From NCBI RefSeq assembly GCF_039822205.1, contig NZ_JBAGBW010000004.1:1-64000 (forward strand): DNA of 64,000 nucleotides, given 5' to 3'. This document shows, piece after piece, positions 6,758 through 52,548 of the stretch; within the stretch, counting starts at the first letter, position 1, and every line of letters starts with the position of its first letter. A program made the translations under genes and the position numbers. The notes below the pieces were generated by a model. The model was not told where the DNA came from, made no database searches, and saw only the letters and a program-made list of their open reading frames with translations. This stretch comes from Thermodesulfobium sp. 4217-1 (lineage in GTDB: Bacteria > Thermodesulfobiota > Thermodesulfobiia > Thermodesulfobiales > Thermodesulfobiaceae).

Positions 6758-9439
6758 CTAATTGTGATAGCTGTTGTTCATTACAGGCAAAATCTTTGCT
6801 TCAACAGGCGAAAATACTTTATTGTCGCCTGGATATGGTGAATTAAAGCCTTTCACGCTATACCATATATCTCGGTTAAAGAGATTCACACTTTGCTTGT
6901 CCTCGTCATCCATTGTAGAACCTGAAAACATCTTCTCTGAAGCCAAAGCCCACAAATATTGAAGCTTGTTGTCTGAAGTCTTCAAGGTATTTAAATCTGG
7001 ATTCATCTCATCTAAGGGAATATTATTTGCCAGCACGTCATAAGGAGCAAGATTTGGCGTATTTGTGAACGCATTGTACATAGGAGTTGCGGCAGAATCC
7101 ATCTGATTCATTGGCGGCAAGCCCAAGATCTGTTCTATTGTTCTTAACATATCTATCTGAGTATACATTGTATGGTCTACAAAATTTCTCTTCACGTATG
7201 GACCTATTACAAATGCTGTAGTTCTGTGACCATCTACATGATCTATCCCATTCTGCGCATCGTCTTCCACCACAAATATGACTGAATCTTTCCAGTACTT
7301 GCTATGGCTTATAGCGTCAACAATTCTACCTAAAGCAAGATCGTTATCCGCTACCATAGCCATTGGTGTAGGCAATCCTGGTTTTGTCCCCCCTGTGTGA
7401 TCGTCAGGCAGAGACATAATTACAAGATTTGGCAAGTTGTTGTTTTCTATATATGAGTTAAATTGTTTCAAGAAAATATCCACTCTATACTGATCGGGTA
7501 TATTTAGACAAAATGGTGGATAATCTCGAATTAAGAGCTTATCATTTGACACTACATCCGATACAGATTGAAATCTTCCAACTGAAACGTGAAGTTTACC
7601 AGTAGCCTTTCCCTCAAGGATTTGTGAGTCTTTGTACCACTCATCCCAGCTGCCAAGAGATTCTACACCTGCTCCAGTGGGAGTACGAAAATACATTACA
7701 TATTCTCCAAAATTAGCCACTGACTTACCATGATTCACTGCATCCTCCCAAATAAAACCCGATGAAAGATAGGCTAAACTATCTCCGCCATCATTTGGAT
7801 AGCTTCTTGGAAAATCACCGAATTGCCTTTCTACATAATCAGGGTCTAAACCTTGATCGGTCCATTGATGCCCATCAGCAGAAACTGAGCCACTGCAATA
7901 AAAGTTATCAAATAGGATAAAATCACTTGCTAAAGCATGTTCGTTTGGGGTAGCTTTTTCGCCAAATACCACCAGGTTTGGGTCACCATTCCCTTCTTTC
8001 ATATCACCAAGTACCTGATCGTATGGCCTATTTTCCTTAATAATATAAAAAACATGTTTTATAGCAGATGATTCACCTAAATCAGAAGGTATTGCGACAG
8101 GACCTGAACTGTATTGAACCTTAGGGTTATCTTTCATCAAACGGCCCCAATTATTATTTTCATATACCTGTTTTGTAAAGTTAGATAAGGCAGTATCGTC
8201 GGGATACTTTACGATAGATATACTTCCAAGCCATGCGTATACTGAATGTCCAAAAAATTGTTTTGAATGGGCAAATGGCACCTCATTACCCAGGGATCCG
8301 ACACCTTTAATATTTGCTACTACAATACTATTTAGCGCTTTATCAATAGCGATATCACCAGGATACCACCCTGTAGGAATTAGACCGTCAAATTTTACCG
8401 CTTCGTTTTCCCCATTCCAATCATAAACATCTACAGCATTATTGGAACCAAGGCTAACATATAATTTATTTTCAGATGAAATTGCGATTGCATTTGGTTG
8501 ACTGCCAAATATAGAGTTTGGATACGGATGAATACTGATAGTCTTTACTACTGTTAGAGACTTCTTGTTTATAACTGAAATCGTATCGCTATTGGTATTG
8601 GTTACAAAAATATCTTCTTTGTTCTGACACATTGCGGTAGGCTGCAAACCTACAGCAATATTTGTTATTACTGAATCAGTGTTAAGATCTATCACAGAAA
8701 CCGTGCCAGTGTTAGCTGCCCCAGTAGCGGGATTTGAAACTATTGAAGCTCCACTCGAATAATTCGTGTAATCACCAGCTGTGGCGACCCTTCCTCCCTG
8801 ATTTGTAACAAAAGCTAAGTTTGAGTCAATTAAGATTGTATATGGGGCGTTACCAACCTGAACCTCACCTATAAACTTGTCATTTGAAAGATCTATTATG
8901 CCTACTGAATTGTTCCTGCTCAATGCTACGTATAATTTAGAGTTGTCAGGTGAGATAGCTAGTCCGCCTGGATCGGCGGTATTGCCGTCTACGTTGTTTG
9001 ACAATTCTATTGTCTTGTGTAAAGTTAAAAGCCCTTCATTATCCACATTAAAATCAAGAATTTTTCCATCGCTGAAAGAGACATATAACTTAGAGCCATC
9101 TTTTGAATAAACTATTCCAGTATAAGAACCGCCTCTTTCACTTTTTGACAGGCTGACATTCTGGATTACCTTGTCTTCATCTAAATTTATTACCACTATT
9201 GGAGAATAACCTGGAGTAAAGTTCTCTGGGTATCCCCCCACATTCGCTACAGCAGTTTTGCCATCTGGGCTTATAGCAATAGCATTGGGTCTACCAGAAA
9301 AAAGCACTTGCTCTCCTGCAGGAGTCAAATTCTGATCTGTAGGAACAGAATTTGAACTTCCAGCAAATGAAGAGGATTGAAAAAATATAAATTGCAAAAG
9401 CAAAATAACAACTGCAAAACATAAAAATGATTTTCTCAA
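6758..9439 (-). CDS. Secreted YncE-type beta-propeller fused to phosphoesterase
   Basis: 893 residues. Signal peptide 1-26. Residues about 45-400 are a YVTN/YncE-like seven-bladed propeller, with repeated AISPDGK, LAISPDNSKLYV, SVIDLNTDSVI and TISVINKKSL blade motifs. Residues about 450-870 are a phosphoesterase of the alkaline-phosphatase superfamily (Phosphoesterase/phospholipase C type). Visible parts are KHVFYIIKENRPYDQVLGD with an Asp/Glu-rich metal loop, SVSADGHQWTD, VIMSLPDDHTGG and VFVVEDDAQNGIDHVDGHR. It probably hydrolyses phosphoester or phospholipid substrates outside the cell. TTG start with GGGAGG about 8-9 nt upstream. The upstream PHO-box array implies induction in phosphate starvation. 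Confidence 0.87.
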   Translation of the reverse strand: MRKSFLCFAVVILLLQFIFFQSSSFAGSSNSVPTDQNLTPAGEQVLFSGRPNAIAISPDGKTAVANVGGYPENFTPGYSPIVVINLDEDKVIQNVSLSKSERGGSYTGIVYSKDGSKLYVSFSDGKILDFNVDNEGLLTLHKTIELSNNVDGNTADPGGLAISPDNSKLYVALSRNNSVGIIDLSNDKFIGEVQVGNAPYTILIDSNLAFVTNQGGRVATAGDYTNYSSGASIVSNPATGAANTGTVSVIDLNTDSVITNIAVGLQPTAMCQNKEDIFVTNTNSDTISVINKKSLTVVKTISIHPYPNSIFGSQPNAIAISSENKLYVSLGSNNAVDVYDWNGENEAVKFDGLIPTGWYPGDIAIDKALNSIVVANIKGVGSLGNEVPFAHSKQFFGHSVYAWLGSISIVKYPDDTALSNFTKQVYENNNWGRLMKDNPKVQYSSGPVAIPSDLGESSAIKHVFYIIKENRPYDQVLGDMKEGNGDPNLVVFGEKATPNEHALASDFILFDNFYCSGSVSADGHQWTDQGLDPDYVERQFGDFPRSYPNDGGDSLAYLSSGFIWEDAVNHGKSVANFGEYVMYFRTPTGAGVESLGSWDEWYKDSQILEGKATGKLHVSVGRFQSVSDVVSNDKLLIRDYPPFCLNIPDQYRVDIFLKQFNSYIENNNLPNLVIMSLPDDHTGGTKPGLPTPMAMVADNDLALGRIVDAISHSKYWKDSVIFVVEDDAQNGIDHVDGHRTTAFVIGPYVKRNFVDHTMYTQIDMLRTIEQILGLPPMNQMDSAATPMYNAFTNTPNLAPYDVLANNIPLDEMNPDLNTLKTSDNKLQYLWALASEKMFSGSTMDDEDKQSVNLFNRDIWYSVKGFNSPYPGDNKVFSPVEAKILPVMNNSYHN

Positions 9440-9486
9440 TGTCCCAACCTCCCTTTTTGATATTTAAATAAATATTAAATTAAAAT

Positions 9487-9525
9487 TGTTAACAAAGTGT
9501 AAATGTAAAGTTAATCATAAGTTAA
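9487..9525 (-). promoter_or_regulatory. PHO-box-like array facing the phosphoesterase gene
   Basis: Four hexamers recur every 11 bp on the plus strand: TGTTAA (9487), TGTAAA (9498), AGTTAA (9509), AGTTAA (9520). Read on the minus strand, toward the phosphoesterase, they are TTAACT, TTAACT, TTTACA and TTAACA. This fits the Bacillus PhoP consensus TT(A/C/T)A(C/T)A with about 5-bp spacers. A TATTTA at 9474-9469 lies 12 bp beyond the array as a possible -10. Seen directly: repeats and period. Inferred: PhoP/PhoB-type binding. Confidence 0.6.
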
Positions 9526-9565
9526 AAAATATTCAAGAAGACTATATAATTTTTATCAAAATACA

Positions 9566-9604
9566 TTAATTATATTTTAACAGATTATTAACAAGCAATT
9601 AACA
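9566..9604 (+). promoter_or_regulatory. PHO-box-like array facing the phosphate symporter gene
   Basis: TTAATT (9566), TTAACA (9577), TTAACA (9588) and TTAACA (9599) are spaced by exactly 11 bp, with three perfect matches to the PhoP half-site. A possible -10, TATTAT (9618-9623), lies 13 bp downstream, where a PhoP-activated promoter would have it. The downstream gene encodes a Pho84-type phosphate transporter, so function and site agree. Confidence 0.7.
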
Positions 9605-9698
9605 TGATTTTTTTTAATATTATCACTAATATCAACTAGAGAAAGGAGGAGAAATTGAATCTTTTGTAATAATTTATTCTAACTTTTGGGAGGTATTA

Positions 9699-11098
9699 GT
9701 GGATAATATTGACTTTGATTCAAGAAAAAATGTTAAAGAAAATACAGTTTCAGAGGCTCTAAATACTTCAAGTTTTAGCCTGTTTCATCTTAAAGCACTT
9801 TTTGCTTCTGGAATGGGGTTTTTTACCTGTGCTTATGATCTTTTTATTATTGGAACAGCGTTGGTCCTCATAAAAGATGAATGGCACTTATCTAGTAGCG
9901 CAATCGGTCTTATAGGTTCTATATCACTGATAGCCACATTTGTAGGAGCATTCGTTTTCGGAAGACTTGCAGACATACTTGGAAGAAAATCAATTTATGG
10001 CTTAGAAGCAATCCTTATGACCGTGGGATCAATATTATCTGCTATTTCCCCAAATGTAATGTTCTTGCTAATTTCAAGAGTTATTTTAGGCTTAGGAATA
10101 GGTGGAGATTATCCTCTTTCTGCTACTCTTATGAGTGAATATGCGAATACAAAATCTCGGGGAAGATTAGTAAGTATTGTCTTTTCAGCCCAAGCGCTCG
10201 GTTTGGTGATTGGACCAGCTGTAGCGCTTACACTTTTAGCAGCAGGAGTCAATCATGATCTCGCTTGGAGAATTATGCTAGGCCTTGGCGCTCTGCCAGC
10301 AATGTCAGTTATTTATATTCGTAGAACTCTTCCTGAATCACCTCGCTGGATAGCAAGGGTTAAAGGAGATGCTAAAAGGGCTGCAAATGAACTAGCCTCA
10401 TTTAGTCTGGGGACTGCAATATCAAATGGTAAAGATAATATTGTAAAAGCTCCACTTTCAAAATATATTTTTACCTTAATTGGCACTGCTGGAACATGGT
10501 TTGTGTTTGACTTCGCATATTATGGAAATGCAATATCAACTCCACTAATCATGAAAGAAATAGTTCCACACGCAAATATTCTTGCATCCACAGCTATGAG
10601 CTTAATTCTATTTTCAGTTGCAGCTGTTCCTGGATATATCTTAGCATTGCTTACAGTCGATCAAATTGGTCACAAAAGACTTCAGATTATAGGTTTTGCG
10701 CTTATGGGATTGATGTTTTTTATAATAGGAGCCTTCCCATTCCTCACACAATCAATAGCAATATTTTTAACACTGTATGGTTTGTCATATTTTTTGCAGA
10801 ATTTGGTGCAAACACCACCACCTTTTTGTTAGCAGCAGAAGTATTTCCTGTAAATCTAAGAACTACTGGACATGGTTATTCTGCTGGAGTAGCAAAGATT
10901 GGAGCATTTATTGGTGCGTTCATATTCCCAATAATCTTAAAAACTTTAGGTTTAGACAAAACACTTGTTTTGACATCAGCATTTTCAATAGTTGGAATAT
11001 TGCTTACATTAGCGTTCATAACTGAACCAAGCGGTAAATCATTAGAAGAAGCTAGTAACGAAGCAAGCCACATAGTTGATGCTGAAGCTAAAATATAA
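9699..11098 (+). pseudogene. Pho84-type phosphate:H+ symporter, frameshifted
   Basis: A major facilitator of the PHS family, about 465 residues if repaired. The hallmark GLGIGGDYPLSAT motif after helix 4 and the GRLADILGRKS loop are typical of Pho84-like inorganic phosphate symporters. Start GTG with GGGAGG five bases upstream. The frame runs to a stop at 10832. The conserved continuation FGANTTTFLLAAEVFP and the last helices are in the +1 frame to 11098. One more T in the T6 run at 10790-10795 joins the halves perfectly as YFFAEFGANTTTF. Either the gene is inactive here, it relies on slippage at the T run, or one base is missing from the assembly. A PHO-box array precedes it. Confidence 0.85.
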
Positions 11099-20622: not shown

Positions 20623-21528
20623 TTATTTTATAAAATATATTAAAATTGCAAGAACACCCAGTATGCCAGTAGCAAAGAAAAATCCAGGCAATTTGAAAAG
20701 TCTCATCTTAGGAACGATAGATTCAATAAATGCTATTAAAAAGACAGTAAGAAGAAATAATAAAAACTTTATAAAAATAGCCAAAACAAAATTTTCTATA
20801 TTAGGGGAGAAAATACTTACGAATAAAGCAATTAAAATAAATTGCTTTAACATAGATGCATAGTGAAAAATTCCCAAAAGAGGGCCAGAATATTCAAGAA
20901 TCATTCCTTCATGAACCATGCTAAGCTCTAAATGGGTATCAGGATTGTCTACTGGCAATCTTGAAGACTCTGCTATTACAATTATAAACATAGAAATGCT
21001 CAGCAAAATCCCTGGAATAGACCATCCAGATGAAAGCATGCTATTAAGATTATACGAAAGGACACTTAACGAAAGAGCAAACAAGACTATAGAGAAAACT
21101 GGCTCAGAAAGAGCTGATATCATCATTTCTCTGCTAGAACCCATGCCTCCAAAACTCGAACCTGATTCCATTCCAGCCAATGCAATAAAAAATCTCGCTA
21201 CTCCAAAACAATATATAAATGTAATAAGGTCATATCCCGAACCATTTTTAAAACCAAGAAAGGGGAACAAAACACAAGCGCTTAGGTATGAAGCAAAGAC
21301 AATAAAAGGAGCAAAAATGGATATTATCGATGAATTTTCAGAGATTGTCGATTCCTTTTTAAAGAATTTTAAAAGGTCTCTATATGGCTGAAATACAGAC
21401 GCCCCCTTCCTGGATTGGAAATATGATTTTATTTTCCTAATAATCCCACTTACAAGAGGAGAAAAAACCAATGCAATAATAACTTGAATTATTGAAACCA
21501 AAATTAATGATGGATTTATCGATACCAT
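20623..21528 (-). CDS. hyfC: HyfC/NuoH-like membrane anchor subunit
   Basis: 301 residues, about eight helices, NADHdh (NuoH/HycD) family. The cytoplasmic loop RKIKSYFQSRKGASVFQPYRDLLKFFKKE is the quinone/anchor loop of the family. A later loop, ESSRLPVDNPDTHLELSMVHEGMILEYSG, holds the conserved acidic cluster. It connects the peripheral redox arm to the antiporter subunits. The start overlaps the hyfB end by 13 bases. In the complex-I evolutionary scheme this subunit, with hyfG and hyfI, forms the coupling core. Confidence 0.92.
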   Translation of the reverse strand: MVSINPSLILVSIIQVIIALVFSPLVSGIIRKIKSYFQSRKGASVFQPYRDLLKFFKKESTISENSSIISIFAPFIVFASYLSACVLFPFLGFKNGSGYDLITFIYCFGVARFFIALAGMESGSSFGGMGSSREMMISALSEPVFSIVLFALSLSVLSYNLNSMLSSGWSIPGILLSISMFIIVIAESSRLPVDNPDTHLELSMVHEGMILEYSGPLLGIFHYASMLKQFILIALFVSIFSPNIENFVLAIFIKFLLFLLTVFLIAFIESIVPKMRLFKLPGFFFATGILGVLAILIYFIK

Positions 21529-23483
21529 AACAAAAGCACCACCAATGTAATAAATATATATGCAAGATAAAAATGCACATAACCGCTTTGAAGAAATCTC
21601 ATTTTAATAGAAAAATTTAATATAAATTTTCTTATTGGGCTATATAAATAAGTAGTAAATGGAGGCTTTAAATCCTCAGAGAATAAAATATCCAATGGCT
21701 TAGCAGGATTAAGCGTGATCTTTCTATGTGGTCTCAGAAAAAATGAATAAGTTCGCCTTATTGGTTGAGAAAAAGACGCAGCAGTATATTCCATCTTAGA
21801 GTTTAAGCTAATGCCGCATCCCCATGTGGGGACCTTTCTAATCTCAAATAGTCCAAAAATTTTACCAAAAATTATAGATAAACTAAAGAATATTCCAAAA
21901 ATTATAAAAAATAAAAGATTTGTCGTTTGAAAATAGACAACATTAAAATTTGAATCTATCTGTAACAGTATTTTAGAAATATAAAAAAGTATATTGGAAG
22001 CTAATAAACCGAGTAATATACAGCTAAAGGCAAGTATAGCTTCTGGTAGGATAATCATCAGATTTGGCTCCTTTGCATTCTTTGCTTCAGATGAGCGCGG
22101 CAAAGCCAAAAATGATACAGAAAAAGCCTTTACAAAACAAGCAGCAGCAAGTGCACCAGTTAAAATTAATGCTACAGGAGACAATATAGCAAAAAGCTTC
22201 CAGTAAGAATGCGCAAAGTAAGACAGATTTAGCATCGAAATATATATTTGATATTCGCTAGCAAACCCATTAAGGGGAGGGATAGCTGAAATTGCCAATG
22301 ATCCAATCAAAAAAGATAAAGCAGTTTTAGGCATATTTTTTATCAATCCACCATAATGCTCCATATCTCGTGTTCCGATTATTTTACTAATCGAACCTGC
22401 AGAAAGGAAAAGCAAGCTCTTGAAAACAGCATGGTTCAAAACATGAAACAAAGAAGCGCAGTAGGCAATAGCAGCAAAAGTATATAGAGACATTGATGAG
22501 AAAATCGCACCTAAACCGACTCCCATAAAGATTATCCCAATATTTTCAACACTATGATATGCTAAAAGTTTTTTAATATCGTGCTCCATCAAGGCATAAA
22601 GAACGCCGATCAAAGACGATGCTATCCCAATGAAGAGTATAACACTCCCCCACCAGATAGGGCCCACACCCAGCATATCGATTACAAATCTAAAAATTCC
22701 ATATATAGCAGTCTTGATCATAACAGAACTCATCATCGCAGATACATTGCTCGGTGCAGAAGGATGTGCCATTGGAAGCCAGATATGCAAAGGAACAATA
22801 CCAGCTTTTGTTCCAAAGCCTATCAGAAAGCATAAGAAGATAATGGATTTAGAAAACATGCTCATATGCATAGCAGCAATCTTCATAGCATCAAAGCTTA
22901 ATCCATTTGAAAATGTCCCCCAATACAAGAGCCCAGAGATAATAAAAACAGTTCCAAAATGAGTCATAAATATATAAAAAAATCCAGCTTTTCTAACATG
23001 CTGATGCCTGTATTCAAAAGTTACAAGAAAATAAGAAAGAATGCTCATTAACTCCCAAAAAATCAAAAATGTAATCGAGTTAGAAACCAAAAACAAAATT
23101 GACATCGAACAAATAAATAAATTATAAAAAAAGGAAAATTTAGCGATATTGTCGTTTAGATAAGACTTCATGTATTCCAAAGAATATATCATAATCAAAA
23201 AATTGATTGCAGAAAGAATTAAAAGAAAAAAGGCGCAAAGCTTATCAAAATAAAATTGCAGCACTATATTTGGAGCAATAACTAAAAGATTAAACAAAAT
23301 TGGATTTGGCAATAAAAATATAAAAACGCCCGACATAAAACCAAGAGCTGAAGCAGTTAAACCAAAATATGAACCGATTTTCAAAGATAGCGTTTTATTT
23401 TTTGAAAAAGCAAGTGGCACAATTGCACCTAAAATATAAAAACCGACTGAAAGATAGAATAAGATAAAACCTAAATCAATCAT
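21516..23483 (-). CDS. hyfB: HyfB-like antiporter subunit
   Basis: 655 residues, about 15-16 helices, Proton_antipo_M family, first gene of the operon. Conserved signature SFLIFWELMSILSYFLVTFEYR includes the helix-5 Glu. GFGTKAGIVPLHIWLPMAHPSAPSNVSAMMS includes the helix-7 Lys. The C-terminal part has the HyfB-specific WGCGISLNSKMEYTAASFSQPIRR segment. ATG with GGAGTG ten bases upstream. The order B-C-E-F-G-HI matches E. coli hyf except that hyfD is missing, so the membrane arm has two rather than three antiporter-like subunits. No maturation (hyp) or endopeptidase gene is nearby. Confidence 0.92.
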   Translation of the reverse strand: MIDLGFILFYLSVGFYILGAIVPLAFSKNKTLSLKIGSYFGLTASALGFMSGVFIFLLPNPILFNLLVIAPNIVLQFYFDKLCAFFLLILSAINFLIMIYSLEYMKSYLNDNIAKFSFFYNLFICSMSILFLVSNSITFLIFWELMSILSYFLVTFEYRHQHVRKAGFFYIFMTHFGTVFIISGLLYWGTFSNGLSFDAMKIAAMHMSMFSKSIIFLCFLIGFGTKAGIVPLHIWLPMAHPSAPSNVSAMMSSVMIKTAIYGIFRFVIDMLGVGPIWWGSVILFIGIASSLIGVLYALMEHDIKKLLAYHSVENIGIIFMGVGLGAIFSSMSLYTFAAIAYCASLFHVLNHAVFKSLLFLSAGSISKIIGTRDMEHYGGLIKNMPKTALSFLIGSLAISAIPPLNGFASEYQIYISMLNLSYFAHSYWKLFAILSPVALILTGALAAACFVKAFSVSFLALPRSSEAKNAKEPNLMIILPEAILAFSCILLGLLASNILFYISKILLQIDSNFNVVYFQTTNLLFFIIFGIFFSLSIIFGKIFGLFEIRKVPTWGCGISLNSKMEYTAASFSQPIRRTYSFFLRPHRKITLNPAKPLDILFSEDLKPPFTTYLYSPIRKFILNFSIKMRFLQSGYVHFYLAYIFITLVVLLLWYR

Positions 23484-44938: not shown

Positions 44939-47900
44939 ATGAATCAGGATATAAACAATAAAGCTCATATTTTAATTCGAGAATTTAAAAAAACAAATCC
45001 TGATATTACTTCTATGGCAAAAAGAAACAATATATATAAACAAATTATTTCTTACAGGAATTTTTATGTTTTATTGACAAAATACATCCGAATAAGAAAT
45101 AAATTAAAATTGCAAATCGAAAAAGCCAAATATTTCTTTAATTTAAATTTATTGTTGACAAAAACTATCCAGCTAGTAAATGACTCGGATGATGAAGACA
45201 CTTTTCTCAAATCAATGTGTAATTTGGCTTCAAAATATGGCCAGTTCAATCTAGTTTTTATAGCCAAGATTAATAAAGATGGGGCTTTTAAGATAATAGC
45301 CTCCAATGATGAAAATATAGAAGGTAAAACCATCAAAGTTGCAGCGAACCAAAATCTGATTGAAAGTGCCAAAAGAGATTCCCGAAATTCAAACGAAAGA
45401 AATTTTAACGAATTATCATTGAATATTGTTTCTCAGAGCTTTACAGATGAAACTGAGAATAAACTTGAAGATTATTCCAGATACTCATTTCCGATTTACA
45501 GTAAAAATCACCTGTGGGCCATTCTTTTTGTTTATTGCGACAAGAAAAGGGTTTTATACAAGGATTGTAAAATATTAACCAATGAAACTGCCAACTGCAT
45601 TTCCATTGGTGTTAGTAAAATAAGGTCGCAAAAACGACAGAAAAGAATTAATTTTTTACAAAAAGCCATTTTAGACAACGCTATGATAGGAATCGCGATG
45701 ATAAAGGATAGAAAGATTGTCCAGATAAACAAGCATTGTTTGGAGATGTTTGGCTATAACAGACCAATGGATCTCATCGGTAAATCCACAAGAATGGTGC
45801 TATCTGATGAAGACGAGTATAAGCGTATAGGTTCTTTTTATCCAGAACTATCTAAAAAGGGAAATATATCTATTAATAACGTTCGATATAAGAATAAAAA
45901 TTCTGAGATCTTAACTTGCGATGTATCAGTCGGACTGGTCAGAGACAATGATGAAAATATCAGCATTTGGGCTATAAAGGATGTGTCAGAGCGAAATGTC
46001 CTGCAAAAGCAGCTTTCACAATCTCTTGAATATCAAAGGACTATTTTCGAAAATAGTTCAGCTGGCATATTCGTAGTCGATTCCAGAAGAGTGATTGCTG
46101 AAGTCAATCCTGCAATGTGCAAAATATTTGGATATGACAGAGAAGAGCTAATTGGTCAAAGCGCTTTAATCCTTCACGAGAGTAAAATTTCTTATTATCA
46201 ATTTTATCCAATATTTGAAACATCCAAAAAAGATAAATCAAAAACAAGAATAGAATATAAATTTAAGAAGAAAGATGGTTCTATAATTTGGACAGAAATT
46301 TTAGGCGCTCCACTAACTCTTCCAAATGGGGAGAAAGGGGTAATTTGGAATCTGATAGATGTAACTGAATTACATGATACTAAGCAAAAAATAGTTTATC
46401 AGGCATTTCACGATGCCCTTACAGGACTTCCGAATAGGCGCGCATTAGAAAATCACATACCGCTATCAATTGAAAGATCCAAAAAAAATGGCTCTTATAT
46501 CGCTGTCGGTATAATTGATCTGGACAACTTTAAGCCAGTGAATGATAAATGGGGACATGAAGCTGGGGATAGGTTGCTAAAAGATTTTTCTCACAGACTC
46601 CAAAATTTAATGAGAAATTCAGAATTGGTTATACGGCTGGGCGGAGATGAATTTATTATAGTAATTGAAGACCTTGACTATCTAAAATATTATCAACAAC
46701 TCGAAATAATATTGAAACGCATTCATAAAGCAATTGAAGCTCCATTTGAGGTAGCCAAAGGCATATATGCCAATGTAGGGATGAGCATAGGGGTTTCTAT
46801 TTACCCAAAAGATGCCCAGGATACTGATTCTCTGATAAGAAAGGCTGACGCAGCTCTTTACCACATGAAGCTTCATAAACTTGATAGAGAAAATTGGTAT
46901 CACTTTTTTACCAAAAGTCTATATGAGCCTGAAATTGAAGAAGAGTTTGATGCTTATGGTGAAAAAGCCACAATACTTTTAAAAAACGCCTCAAATGATT
47001 TTGATTCTGTAATATCTCAATTTATAGAAGCCTTTTTCAAAAAGGTATCGCATGACCCAGAGCAAAAGAAGATTGCTGTCAATCTTTCTATAGCAGAAGT
47101 GGATAAATTAAAGCAAAGCCAGTTTGCTCATTTAAGATTTATTTTTAATCCAAAAACTACTAAGGATGAAATTGTAAAAAGGGCGCAAAATGCAGGTCGT
47201 TCCCATGCGCTAGTTGGTGTGACTAGTTCAATGCTTTTACAAACTACAGATTTATTTAGAAGACTATTGAGCGATCATTTAAACAGCACTCTTATGTCGC
47301 CTCGTGACAGATATTGGATATTGTTGATTGCAGATATCAGACTTCATCAAGATATTAAAACAGAACTTGAATTTGAAAATTCCTATAAAGAAGAATATCT
47401 AAAGATTTTGTCGTCAAGTCTCCCACCGCATAGCATATCATGGCCAGACGCAAGAGAAAGAGAGCTAACTCCACTAGGCAGGCTGCCAGGAATCCAATCG
47501 GTTTTACTTATTAGACTAGACAAAAAAAGAATTTTTACCTTAGAAAGCAGTAGCGGTAATAACATCGTTGGGACTACAATAGATTTTGAATCGCTATTAA
47601 ATAAAGAAAACCCTGCAAAAAATAATATTAGCTTGCGAAAAATACTTTCAAAAATGTGGCTTGGTAAGAAAATTATAAGCTTGGCTTGCCTGTCAAACGA
47701 CCTAAATGACATTTATATAAATGAAATAGCGCTAAAAAATAATATTAGATCTATATTAAGTATTCCGATATTAGACGAATCAAATCAAACAACAGCTATA
47801 ATAGTTCTAAATGGCGCCTTTCCAAATCAATTTGAATCTTCATTTATGGGTCAATTCGCCAGAAGTCTAAAGTATCGTTGGGAGCAAATTATCTCAATTT

Positions 47901-48958
47901 ATAAAAAAACCGAAATTGTTATGCCCCAAAGCATTGCAACTTATTATAAACAGCAGCTATTTTCAGGAGGTCTAAAAATATTCTTCCAGCCAATTTTAGA
48001 CCTTAAATTAAAAAAATTTGTCAAAGTAGAGGCCTTAGCCAGATTGCAAATTTCAAATAATGAAATAATCCCCCCTGGTGTTTTTTTGCCGCTATTAAGC
48101 AATAAAGATTTAGATTTGCTGTTCCACTTGGGTTTGGAAGAGGTATTATATCAAATTTCCATTTGGGATTCTATCGGATTTTTTATTGATTCATCAATCA
48201 ATCTTGCCCCTTGCTCGCTACTCGACATCTCTCTCCCTAAATATATTAAAAATACTTTAGATAGATATTCAATATCTCTAGAAAGGCTCACCCTTGAACT
48301 TTTAGAGTCTCAAAATATTGAAAAGGATATACAAGACCGCTCAATAAATGAGATTTCAAATATTGGAGTTCAAATTGCTATGGATGACTTGGGGTCTGGA
48401 TACAGCAGCCTGCAAAGGTTATCAAATCTTCCATTTGATTTAGTAAAAGTTGATCAGGGCTTATTGTCTAAGATAAGGCAAAACCCCTTGCAAACGCTAT
48501 GTTTTGTAGAAAGTATAATTCAGATGGGCGATGATTTTGAAAGAAAAGTAGTAGTAGAAGGACTAGAGAAGATAGATATGGTTGAGGCAGCAGCCATCCT
48601 TGGAGCCCAATATGGACAAGGATATGCATTGGCTAAGCCAATGCCAGCAAATCAGGTAGTTCAATGGATACAAAATTTTAAATTCCCCATAGAAGAAGGC
48701 AAGATACATAGCTATCTTGGAGCACTTGCATATCATCTTCAATATATGAGAAGAAAAAACTTTCTACACGACAATTCTATTCAGGATTGTCCATTAACAG
48801 ACTTTTTAATTAAGAGCAATCTTGAAAAAACCGATGCTTTTAGATTTCACGAGCTTATCCATTCTGGAAAAGATCTAAAGTCAAACAGCAAGAAGCTATT
48901 AGAGTGGCTAAACAAAAAGGTAATTGAAGAAGATTTAGAAATAAAAAATGAAAAATAA
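44939..48958 (+). CDS. Multidomain c-di-GMP protein: GAF-PAS-PAS-GGDEF-globin-like-GAF-EAL
   Basis: 1339 residues, no membrane helix. In order: GAF (about 60-225), PAS (238-350), PAS (360-478), and GGDEF (485-655; RLGGDEF intact at 566-572, I-site changed to RNSE). A globin-like sensor region (about 680-815) has H731 and H756 (GRSHALVGV) as possible heme-side histidines. A second GAF (835-990) and EAL (995-1245) follow, the latter with VEALAR, NLAP, DDLGSGYSSL, LVKVD and VVEGLE all recognisable, so phosphodiesterase activity is likely. The tail (1255-1339) has H1266, C1284, H1304 and H1308 and resembles a zinc-binding CZB domain. It integrates gas or redox signals with c-di-GMP turnover. The stop overlaps the next gene by 11 bases. 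Confidence 0.85.
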   Translation: MNQDINNKAHILIREFKKTNPDITSMAKRNNIYKQIISYRNFYVLLTKYIRIRNKLKLQIEKAKYFFNLNLLLTKTIQLVNDSDDEDTFLKSMCNLASKYGQFNLVFIAKINKDGAFKIIASNDENIEGKTIKVAANQNLIESAKRDSRNSNERNFNELSLNIVSQSFTDETENKLEDYSRYSFPIYSKNHLWAILFVYCDKKRVLYKDCKILTNETANCISIGVSKIRSQKRQKRINFLQKAILDNAMIGIAMIKDRKIVQINKHCLEMFGYNRPMDLIGKSTRMVLSDEDEYKRIGSFYPELSKKGNISINNVRYKNKNSEILTCDVSVGLVRDNDENISIWAIKDVSERNVLQKQLSQSLEYQRTIFENSSAGIFVVDSRRVIAEVNPAMCKIFGYDREELIGQSALILHESKISYYQFYPIFETSKKDKSKTRIEYKFKKKDGSIIWTEILGAPLTLPNGEKGVIWNLIDVTELHDTKQKIVYQAFHDALTGLPNRRALENHIPLSIERSKKNGSYIAVGIIDLDNFKPVNDKWGHEAGDRLLKDFSHRLQNLMRNSELVIRLGGDEFIIVIEDLDYLKYYQQLEIILKRIHKAIEAPFEVAKGIYANVGMSIGVSIYPKDAQDTDSLIRKADAALYHMKLHKLDRENWYHFFTKSLYEPEIEEEFDAYGEKATILLKNASNDFDSVISQFIEAFFKKVSHDPEQKKIAVNLSIAEVDKLKQSQFAHLRFIFNPKTTKDEIVKRAQNAGRSHALVGVTSSMLLQTTDLFRRLLSDHLNSTLMSPRDRYWILLIADIRLHQDIKTELEFENSYKEEYLKILSSSLPPHSISWPDARERELTPLGRLPGIQSVLLIRLDKKRIFTLESSSGNNIVGTTIDFESLLNKENPAKNNISLRKILSKMWLGKKIISLACLSNDLNDIYINEIALKNNIRSILSIPILDESNQTTAIIVLNGAFPNQFESSFMGQFARSLKYRWEQIISIYKKTEIVMPQSIATYYKQQLFSGGLKIFFQPILDLKLKKFVKVEALARLQISNNEIIPPGVFLPLLSNKDLDLLFHLGLEEVLYQISIWDSIGFFIDSSINLAPCSLLDISLPKYIKNTLDRYSISLERLTLELLESQNIEKDIQDRSINEISNIGVQIAMDDLGSGYSSLQRLSNLPFDLVKVDQGLLSKIRQNPLQTLCFVESIIQMGDDFERKVVVEGLEKIDMVEAAAILGAQYGQGYALAKPMPANQVVQWIQNFKFPIEEGKIHSYLGALAYHLQYMRRKNFLHDNSIQDCPLTDFLIKSNLEKTDAFRFHELIHSGKDLKSNSKKLLEWLNKKVIEEDLEIKNEK

Positions 48959-50681
48959 TTTATCAGCCATATTGCTAAAAATTAAAAATTTACTAAAAAA
49001 TATAATTTATAAATTAAATAAGATTTATCTACTGACTTCTATTCCGTTGATTGTAATAGCGATTATTTTTTATTTTTATACCAGCATAAAATTTTCTGTA
49101 AATATGCCCTATTCAGACGATTATGATGCTATTTTAGACTTCATAAACAAATTTTATACTCATAACGACTTCGGATATAGACTATATCTGCTCTTTTCTC
49201 AATTTCACGAGCACAGAATTGTATTTGACAGGATTATTACACTATTTTTTTTCAATATTATTGGCAAGATAGACTTTAAAATATTATCAATTGTAGGAAA
49301 CTTTGGACTTCTCTTTATAATATTATTTTTGTTTATCTTTTTTAAGAAAAAATATAATTTGAAAATATCAGAGTTATTTCCAGTGGTCATAGCAATGCTT
49401 TGCTTTTCACAATGGGAGCTGATGTCGAACTTTCCAATGGCATCTATTCAGCAATATTATGAGCTTCTTTTCTCGATCATATCCATCACAGCATTTACCT
49501 GTGAAGGGTATGGCTTTATGCTTGGGATAATATTCTTCATAATAGCAGTCTTTACTGGCGGAGGCGGTCTATTCGTAGCACCTATCGTTCTTTTATATCT
49601 ATTGTTAACAAAACAATATAAAAGATTTTCGATTTTTTTGATTGTATCTATCATAATTTTTTACATTTACTTTCCTCTTCTGCATTACATCTCGCCTCCG
49701 ATAAAAGACACATTAATCTCTTGCTTAAAAAACCCCGCCTCACTATTGGGCTATATGTTGATTTTTATAGCATCAGCTGCCAAAAATTATGCCTTAGTGT
49801 TTATTATCGCAATTTTATTAATATTAAACTATCTCTGGCTCTTGCGCAGAAAACTAAATAAAGAAAACCATGCCTTAATATTACTTATTAGTTTCATATT
49901 CTTGACATCTATGGTAGTAGGTCTAAATAGAATTTTTTTAGGATTTGATAGCGCAATGTTTTCAAGATATACAATGTATTCGCTTTTCTTATTTTCTCTA
50001 TCTTATATATCACTTTTCTTAAACGCTAAAAGTAAAAATATCAGAAAATTTATAGCTCTTTCGGGCTTTATACTATCAATCGTTTTATATGTTGGCTGGA
50101 TTCAAACAGCATACTCAGAGCTATCTGACAAACAATATATGTTAAATAATTTTATGTCATACCCATATCAGGACAGAGCGTTTGAAAATATAAGGCTTGC
50201 CAAGAATCATGGATGGTTTACCCCACTGCAAAATGTTTATGATAAAACAAAGCAAGAATTTCACCTTGCGGAAAATATAAAACAGCTCAGAAAATATAGC
50301 TCACCGCCATTGATCGTGCTTACTTACTTTCATAAATATCCATTTCCCTTCGCAAACAAAAGTTTTCAATTAATAGTAAAAAGATATGAGAGCATAAATC
50401 TATATGGATGGGCGCTAGATCCTTTTGCATTAAATACCGCATCATTTTTATATGCCGATATCGATGGCAAACTTTATCCATTGACTTATGGCTTCCCAAG
50501 GAAAGACGTCGTTAGACTTTTCAAAATTCCCCAGTTCAAATTTTCAGGATTTAATTCCAATGTCAGCATAAAAAACCTTCCAAACGGGAGCCATGAATTT
50601 AGTTTGATAGTGGTAAACCACAACGAAAGCGCATACTATCAAACAAATAAGCTAACTTTCTATAAAGAAAACGCAGATTAA
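48948..50681 (+). CDS. GT-C-like membrane protein with a C-terminal GWAxD domain
   Basis: 577 residues. Residues 1-400 hold 10-12 helices with PYSDDYDAILDFINKF after helix 1 (acidic catalytic-type loop), LLFSQFHEHRIVFDR, MASIQQYYELLF, FTGGGGLFVAPIVLLYLLL and SRYTMYSLFLFSL. This order is shared with the gene at 37035-38300. Residues about 480-577 are a beta-sandwich-like domain, INLYGWALDPFALNTASF to NHNESAYYQTNKLTF, also found at the end of the broken gene at 41758-44147. It starts within the c-di-GMP gene (11-base overlap), so the two are translationally coupled. Probable role: extracytoplasmic glycan transfer under c-di-GMP influence. Confidence 0.7.
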   Translation: MKNNLSAILLKIKNLLKNIIYKLNKIYLLTSIPLIVIAIIFYFYTSIKFSVNMPYSDDYDAILDFINKFYTHNDFGYRLYLLFSQFHEHRIVFDRIITLFFFNIIGKIDFKILSIVGNFGLLFIILFLFIFFKKKYNLKISELFPVVIAMLCFSQWELMSNFPMASIQQYYELLFSIISITAFTCEGYGFMLGIIFFIIAVFTGGGGLFVAPIVLLYLLLTKQYKRFSIFLIVSIIIFYIYFPLLHYISPPIKDTLISCLKNPASLLGYMLIFIASAAKNYALVFIIAILLILNYLWLLRRKLNKENHALILLISFIFLTSMVVGLNRIFLGFDSAMFSRYTMYSLFLFSLSYISLFLNAKSKNIRKFIALSGFILSIVLYVGWIQTAYSELSDKQYMLNNFMSYPYQDRAFENIRLAKNHGWFTPLQNVYDKTKQEFHLAENIKQLRKYSSPPLIVLTYFHKYPFPFANKSFQLIVKRYESINLYGWALDPFALNTASFLYADIDGKLYPLTYGFPRKDVVRLFKIPQFKFSGFNSNVSIKNLPNGSHEFSLIVVNHNESAYYQTNKLTFYKENAD

Positions 50682-50781
50682 ACCTGGTTTTTAAATTTCT
50701 AAAAATCTAAATTAACATTTAAAATAGCTTCAACCTTCAAATTGACTAAAGCATATAAATAAGTATATAACTCAATTTAAT

Positions 50782-50808
50782 TTGTCAGTTTTTCAATTAG
50801 GTTATAAT
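50782..50808 (+). promoter_or_regulatory. Possible kdp promoter
   Basis: TTGTCA (50782-50787), 15-nt spacer, TATAAT (50803-50808). The spacer is short, so the match is only fair. The start codon of kdpA follows about 50 bp later. No clear riboswitch or KdpE-like repeat was seen in 50682-50847. Confidence 0.4.
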
Positions 50809-50859
50809 TAACTTTTAAGTAATAGTAAATTTATATGTTTTCAGGAGGTGTTAATTAAT

Positions 50860-52548
50860 TTGTTTTTAGATATTTTGCAGTTTTTAATTTTCTTTGCGTT
50901 ATTGACGTTGTGCGTAAAACCTCTTGGTTTGTACATGTCAAATATTTTTGAAGGTAGAAAAAACTTTCTTTCGAAAATCATCTCTCCAATAGAACTGCTT
51001 GTTTACAGATTGAGTTTCGTAGATCCAGACAACCAGATGGAGTGGAAAGAGTATGCTATATCAATGCTGCTCTTTAACTTTCTGGGTTTTATGTTTCTTT
51101 TCTTGTTACTTCTAACACAGCAATTGCTGCCACTAAATCCTGAACACTTTCAAGGCTTTTCATTTGACATCGCCTTAAATAGTGCCATAAGCTTTATCAC
51201 GAACACAAATTGGCAAGCTTATTCAGGAGAGTCATCTGTTAGTTATCTAACCCAGATGCTCGGCTTTGCAGTCCAAAATTTCCTTAGCGCTGCAACAGGC
51301 ATCGCTATCCTTGTTGCGCTAATTCGAGGTTTTGCAAGAAGAGAATCAAAAGTTATTGGAAATTTTTGGGTTGACATAACAAGATCAACTTTTTACATTC
51401 TTTTGCCATTATCGATAATCTTTGCAGTTTTCTTGATAAGTCAAGGAGTTATCCAAAACTTTAAAGATTATCAATCAGTTCATCTAATTTCATCACAGAT
51501 TATTCCGATGGGACCCGTAGCCTCACAAGAAGCAATCAAGTTTACAGGCACGAACGGAGGAGGTTTTTTCAACGCAAACTCTTCACATCCTTACGAAAAT
51601 CCCAACCCTTTAACAAACTTTTTGGAAACATTTATGATGATTCTTATTCCTGCCTCGCTCACATACACATTTGGGAGGATGCAAAAAAACACCAAACAAG
51701 GTTGGGCAATTTATTTTACAATGCTTTTCTTGCTCATAACCTTTATGGGCATTCAATATTGGGCAAATATTTCTTCCAACCATATAGTTAGTCTTCTTGG
51801 AATTTCAGGACATTATCTGGAGGGACAAGAAATAAGATTTGGGGTTGCAGGCTCCACACTCTTTTCATCAATTACCACAGCAACTGGATGCGGAGCAGTT
51901 AATGCTATGCTCGATTCCCTTTTGCCTATTGGATCGATGATTTCGATGATATTCATATTGTCAGGTGAGGCAATATTTGGAGGTGTTGGTTCAGGGTTGT
52001 ACACAATGTTTGCATTCATAATAATTGCTGTCTTCGTGGCAGGCCTAATGATAGGCCGTACCCCTGAATTTCTAGGGAAGAAGATAGAAGTTAAGGAGAT
52101 GTGGATGTCGATAATCATAGTACTAACTTCAGGCATCTTAATATTGATATTTACATCTATTGCGCTTACTACAAAGGAAGGATTGAGTTCTATATTAAAT
52201 CCTGGTCCCCACGGATTATCCGAAATACTATATGCTTATGCGTCTACTGCAAATAATAACGGAAGCGCCCTTGCTGGTTTAAATGCGAACACATTATTTT
52301 ATAATATTACGACTTCTATAACTATGTTAATTGGTCGCTATGTGCCTGCGGTAGCAGTTATTTATATGGCAGGCTCTCTTGCAGGGAAAAAATACATTCC
52401 TCCTAGTGTCGGAACTCTTCCTACTGACCGCGTTCCCTTTATCATATGGCTTATGTTGATAATAATTATTGTAGGAGCTTTAACCTTCTTTTCAGCATTA
52501 GCATTGGGACCATTTCTTGAAAATATTCTTATGCAGAGAGGCTTTTAA
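50860..52548 (+). CDS. kdpA: Potassium-transporting ATPase, potassium-binding subunit
   Basis: 562 residues from the TTG at 50860. Ten helices. The selectivity-filter-like loops include [46 protein letters not shown] and [15 protein letters not shown]. KdpA binds K+ in a channel-like path and feeds it to the pump in the KdpFABC complex. AGGAGG (50843-50848) lies 11 bases before TTG but only five before an in-frame ATT (50854); a GTG at 50848 overlaps the ribosome site and is unlikely. No kdpF was found. First gene of kdpABCD'. Confidence 0.95.

Follow-up and report, generated by a model that had tools for sequence, protein, structure and literature searches.

Background

PhoP of Bacillus subtilis follows an operator rule, TT(A/C/T)A(C/T)A hexamers with spacers of about 5 bp. 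In cyanobacteria, SphR binds repeats of CTTAACCT with 3-bp linkers, i.e. the 11-bp form (PMC1906773), and the PhoB box of E. coli is an 11-bp direct repeat with the core CTGTCAT (PMC4415409, PMC1906773); E. coli Pho boxes sit 10 bp upstream of the -10 element (PMC1906773).

The window analysed here, a stretch of 64,000 nucleotides of Thermodesulfobium sp. 4217-1 (contig NZ_JBAGBW010000004.1, positions 1 to 64,000), contains a pair of divergent arrays of this kind in a 259-bp, 80% AT intergenic region between a phosphoesterase gene and an MFS gene. The features of the locus are as follows.

6758..9439, minus strand: beta-propeller/phosphoesterase of 893 aa with a TTG start, predicted to be exported (PF04185, 8e-13, plus beta-propeller models; signal-like hydrophobic N-terminal helix)
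9472..9477, minus strand: predicted -10 element TAATAT, 9 bp past the last leftward hexamer (9-bp spacing also at pstS, at pstC and at this locus in congeners)
9487..9525, minus strand: leftward PHO-box array TTAACT-TTAACT-TTTACA-TTAACA with 11-bp period, preceding the phosphoesterase gene and kept in all three congeners; units 5' to 3' are TTAACT 9525-9520, TTAACT 9514-9509, TTTACA 9503-9498 and TTAACA 9492-9487
9566..9604, plus strand: rightward PHO-box array TTAATT-TTAACA-TTAACA-TTAACA with 11-bp period, kept in the congeners G002 and G003; units are TTAATT 9566-9571, TTAACA 9577-9582, TTAACA 9588-9593 and TTAACA 9599-9604
9615..9620, plus strand: predicted -10 element TAATAT, 10 bp past the last rightward hexamer (9 bp in G002)
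9699..11098, plus strand: MFS permease gene of the PHS type, split by a frameshift near 10826 into the frames 9699-10832 and 10826-11098

Elsewhere in the window, the stretches 21516-23483 and 44939-52548 encode a membrane subunit of the hydrogenase-4 type and a GGDEF/EAL protein of 1339 aa, the latter upstream of kdpA.

With the PhoP operator of B. subtilis the arrays share the hexamer, the 11-bp period, the number of four units, the position relative to the promoter and the target classes (pst, phosphatases). The systems differ in that the host is a diderm and the kinase soluble here, whereas PhoR of B. subtilis is membrane-bound, and in that phoB and phoR do not form an operon but diverge from start codons about 24 bp apart. 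The cyanobacterial SphR box (three CTTAACCT repeats with 3-bp linkers; PMC1906773) is alike in its TTAAC core, 11-bp period, diderm host and pstS/phosphatase targets; in Thermodesulfobium, however, position 6 is A or T, rarely C, and the best sites comprise four units. The E. coli PhoB box (PMC4415409, PMC1906773) likewise consists of 11-bp repeats, is recognized by an OmpR-type regulator and has the -10 element about 10 bp downstream, replacing the -35, but its core sequence is different, and each array described here is made up of four single units. The lack of a transmembrane segment in the putative kinase sets it apart from PhoR of both E. coli and B. subtilis.

Methods

The window's own genome (G000) is a draft of 2,000,902 bases in 69 contigs. 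It was compared with three congeners (G001, G002 and G003), giving a set of four genomes; two of the congener genomes are single chromosomes of 1,898,865 and 1,774,794 bp. Beyond the genus, the nearest listed relatives share only the domain with G000. A CRISPR array is suggested in G000 (C29, L043 59-4945) by short ORFs that contain repeats of peptides such as SQSLIHQGIFPT; a 1089-aa ORF follows.

Arrays were scored as mismatches out of 24 against a 4x(TTAACA+N5) template, and the null model was obtained by shuffling the 259-bp intergenic region (20% GC) 2000 times with its dinucleotide counts preserved. Genomes were scanned for three TTAACA at 11 bp, with the reversed pattern as control. Sites with 3 mismatches were not by themselves counted as regulon members, because their excess over the control is small and some of them are DnaA-box clusters.

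Results and discussion

The arrays and their promoters

Direct reading of the sequence confirmed the coordinates that the first-pass annotation had given for two divergent four-hexamer arrays of exact 11-bp period. The rightward and leftward arrays score 2 and 3 mismatches of 24, respectively, with 11-bp steps that are exact throughout, and none of the 2000 shuffles equalled either of them (best shuffle on either strand, 5 mismatches; mean, about 9.4). Other periods (7-10 and 12-17) gave 7-10 mismatches each in the real sequence, and the rightward TTAACA triple is the sole zero-mismatch match to the scan pattern in the 2.0-Mb genome. In a comparison of five orthologous arrays, 16 of the 120 columns in hexamers vary, as compared to 33 of the 75 in spacers (Fisher p=2.8e-6, a conservative value since some rows of one array were set one unit out of register). 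The array pair is real, conserved and divergent. The consensus of 27 units, TTAAC(A/T), has the hexamer and 5-bp spacer form of the PhoP rule, to which the arrays had initially been assigned; the final T at some units departs from it.

Downstream of the last unit, the -10 elements (TAATAT, TATATT, TATACT) start at a distance of 9 bp for pstS, pstC and the phosphoesterase gene, and of 9-10 bp for the permease gene; for arsC and for the phoA gene of G001 the spacing is ambiguous. A -35 element at 17 bp was not found upstream of these -10s; the array fills that position. Since the arrays sit 9-10 bp before the -10, as E. coli Pho boxes do at 10 bp, activation is the likely outcome of regulator binding.

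A Pho regulon in four genomes

The scan of the whole genome proposed in the first-pass annotation revealed a concentration of the pattern at phosphate genes in G000 and in the three congeners. The four genomes together contain 23 sites with ≤2 mismatches versus 6 for the reversed pattern. By our assignment, 20 of the 23 are located upstream of pstS, the phosphoesterase gene, the permease position, arsC, a conserved 123-aa ORF from the arsC cluster or phoA; two others are beside ftsZ, and one is inside another ORF. Each of the four genomes has an array with ≤2 mismatches before pstS. The phosphoesterase array is likewise found in every genome and stays within this limit in two, and the pstC-pstA-pstB-phoU operon is preceded by an array of 2-3 units (3 mismatches in G000, G001 and G002). 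Alkaline phosphatase (PF00245) is encoded only by G001 among the four genomes and has its own array of 4-5 units there, so that an accessory gene lends the regulon independent confirmation. An arsC-like gene (LMW phosphatase family) directly follows a second, intact PHS-type permease gene, with a PHO array between the two (G000 C21, L036 5048-5533), an arrangement kept in G001 and G003. Another array of TTAAC units is situated between a SIMPL-domain gene and the 123-aa ORF, which is without Pfam match, in all four species (G000 C21, L036 1247-1735).

At 3 mismatches, the G000 genome contains 29 sites versus 15 for the reversed control. A conserved site of this class, flanked by phoU and a UspA-like gene, faces neither of the two and is not a tRNA. 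DnaA-box-like repeats (TTATCCACA/TTATCAACA) with 11-bp spacing, which pass for PHO sites when 3 mismatches are allowed, occur at C1:150904-150942 in G000, C1:1404-1431 in G001 and C1:1439-1466 in G003, and likely mark the origin of replication.

Regulator and kinase

A candidate regulator and its putative kinase are encoded outside the window.

G000 C15:8436-9110: PhoB-like response regulator
G000 C15:9135-10037: PhoR/PnpS-like kinase, 300 aa, transcribed away from the PhoB-like gene (start codons about 24 bp apart) and kept in the four species

Proteins with an OmpR-type DNA-binding domain number only three in G000 (C15, C24 and C31). The C15 protein fits best to the PhoB model (TIGR02154) with 207.5 bits, below the cut-off of 296.2, and is therefore called PhoB-like. 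Its orthologue is encoded directly upstream of pstS in G001 and G003, with the array between them; in G000 and G002 the gene is about 5-9 kb from pstS on the same contig, and the intervening genes include glycosyltransferase-like ones. The PhoP-family regulator on which the earlier reading depended is thus represented by a PhoB/PhoP-like protein with linkage to pstS. The best models for the adjacent kinase are weak matches to PnpS and PhoR, PnpS of Gram-positive bacteria being the top NCBIfam model (53 bits). A transmembrane segment was not found in this kinase, the maximum 19-residue hydropathy being 1.4-1.6 versus 2.4-2.6 in the other two kinases.

In a tree with 25 pst-linked regulators, made as a test of PhoB orthology, C24 and C31 group together and apart from C15. 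The latter is on a long branch and falls with no one lineage; it is placed near Chloroflexota, cyanobacterial and acidobacterial regulators, with weak support, in a sample with one Bacillota member. The identification of C15 as the Pho regulator is based on gene context and elimination, not on phylogeny.

The locus combines the marks of a PHO box, namely 11-bp direct repeats, recurrence before pst and phosphatase genes, a -10 element about 10 bp downstream without a -35, and a pst-linked regulator of the OmpR family. Very probably, the two divergent arrays are activator operators of class II type that belong to a Pho regulon and are bound by the C15 PhoB/PhoP-type regulator under phosphate limitation. 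Phosphate would be the signal, and its limitation would lead the adjacent soluble PhoR/PnpS-like kinase to phosphorylate the C15 regulator in a phosphorelay. The regulator would then bind each array head-to-tail, each 11-bp unit taking up one DNA-binding domain and each array two dimers, and would replace the missing -35 and recruit RNA polymerase to the -10 at 9-10 bp downstream. Regulation would be positive: the leftward operator would turn on the exported phosphoesterase and the rightward one the PHS-type phosphate permease, and the same regulator would also drive pstS, pstCAB-phoU, the arsC-like gene and, in the genome that has it, alkaline phosphatase. Weighing against this reading are the PhoB score below the cut-off and the long branch of C15, the lack of a membrane segment in the kinase, and the broken permease gene.

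Alternative explanations and the TTAAC form in other phyla

In a region that is 80% AT, and in a genome where 3-mismatch matches are common, the hexamers might be products of chance, or repeats of a constitutive promoter without regulatory role. This explanation is refuted by the shuffle, period, conservation and target tests and has a negligible probability: no shuffle on either strand was as good, the signal is specific for 11 bp, the arrays are kept in congeners while the spacers vary, and the sites are concentrated at phosphate genes. The arrays might also be operators of the C24 or C31 regulator, for example of a metal-stress system, as OmpR-family regulators commonly bind direct repeats of about 10-11 bp and G000 encodes three of them. 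We consider this very unlikely, as the best models for C24 and C31 are those of the cztR/silR/copR heavy-metal family, the tree separates both from C15, the targets of the arrays are phosphate genes, and the regulator adjacent to pstS is C15.

The first-pass annotation had viewed a Gram-positive-style operator in a diderm lineage as informative about the PhoPR system. The diderm character was borne out by POTRA (BamA-type) domains in all four genomes, but the operator is not distinctive of Gram-positive bacteria. When 76 named pstS upstream regions of GTDB genomes were surveyed for three TTAAC at 11 bp, each against its own shuffles, 20 were positive at p≤0.01 (controls: reversed pattern 1, period 10 1, period 12 2), in a search-biased sample whose fractions are not frequencies. 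Nearly all of the 20 regions belong to diderm phyla, and only one is labelled Bacillota; the groups include WOR-3, Hippea/Campylobacterota, Myxococcota, Ignavibacteria, Dehalococcoidia, another Chloroflexi (Chloroflexota), Acidobacteria (Acidobacteriota), Rokubacteria and Cryosericum (Cryosericota). TGTCA arrays were detected in 8 of the 76 regions. The TTAAC PHO-box form is common among diderms, and because it is found in their pstS regions as well as in cyanobacteria (PMC1906773), the Gram-positive-style inference fails. A specifically Bacillus-type PhoPR system, acquired from or shared only with Gram-positive bacteria, would agree with TTAAC(A/T) units at 5-bp spacers and with the weak PnpS match of the kinase. 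Such an origin is nevertheless highly improbable, given the wide distribution of TTAAC arrays before pstS in diderm phyla and the Chloroflexota, cyanobacterial and acidobacterial neighbours of the C15 regulator in the tree, weak as their support is and with one Bacillota regulator sampled.

State of the permease gene

Phosphate functions had been attributed to both flanking genes. The assignment stands for the phosphoesterase with its PF04185 domain; for the permease it is weaker, as the best NCBIfam model of the first frame (9699-10832), the phosphate:H+ symporter TIGR00887, scores 213.8 bits, below the model cut-off, and the frame breaks in a T-run near 10826, so that the gene as sequenced in G000 is not intact. 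The G002 frame is broken too, but at another T-run, close to the N terminus. In G003 the permease is gone from the locus, leaving the rightward array orphaned and abutting an aldo/keto-reductase remnant, and neither a permease gene nor a right array was found at this locus in G001. Coordinates of the permease locus across genomes are 9699-11098 in the window, 2310-3740 in L169 and 7060-7250 in L168.

The right-hand permease gene appears to be decaying. Sequencing error is possible for both frameshifts; real decay is favoured because the gene has been lost from the locus in the other two species. Since the gene is broken in G000, the rightward operator may lack a functional target there. Three genomes (G000, G001 and G003) have an intact copy of the second PHS-type permease gene (C21); in G002 this gene extends past a contig end. 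The phosphoesterase gene is retained in all four species, the G002 copy being cut by a contig end.

Conclusions

The array beside arsC suggests a link between arsenate detoxification and phosphate starvation, during which arsenate would enter via phosphate transporters. More tentatively, and with doubt outweighing confidence, the TTAAC PHO box might be a widespread and possibly ancestral operator across diderm and monoderm phyla, from which CTGTCAT of gammaproteobacteria and GTTCACC of Streptomyces would be derived, and which would here be driven by a soluble PhoU-dependent kinase and serve a regulon that includes arsenate reductase. TTAAC PHO boxes of 11-bp period are no marker of Gram-positive ancestry.

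The design of the switch is already known and found in many kinds of bacteria; the useful product is the regulon at the level of the lineage. To our knowledge, no Pho regulon has been described for Thermodesulfobiota, and the present analysis provides a well-supported, testable one for this single-genus, phylum-level lineage.
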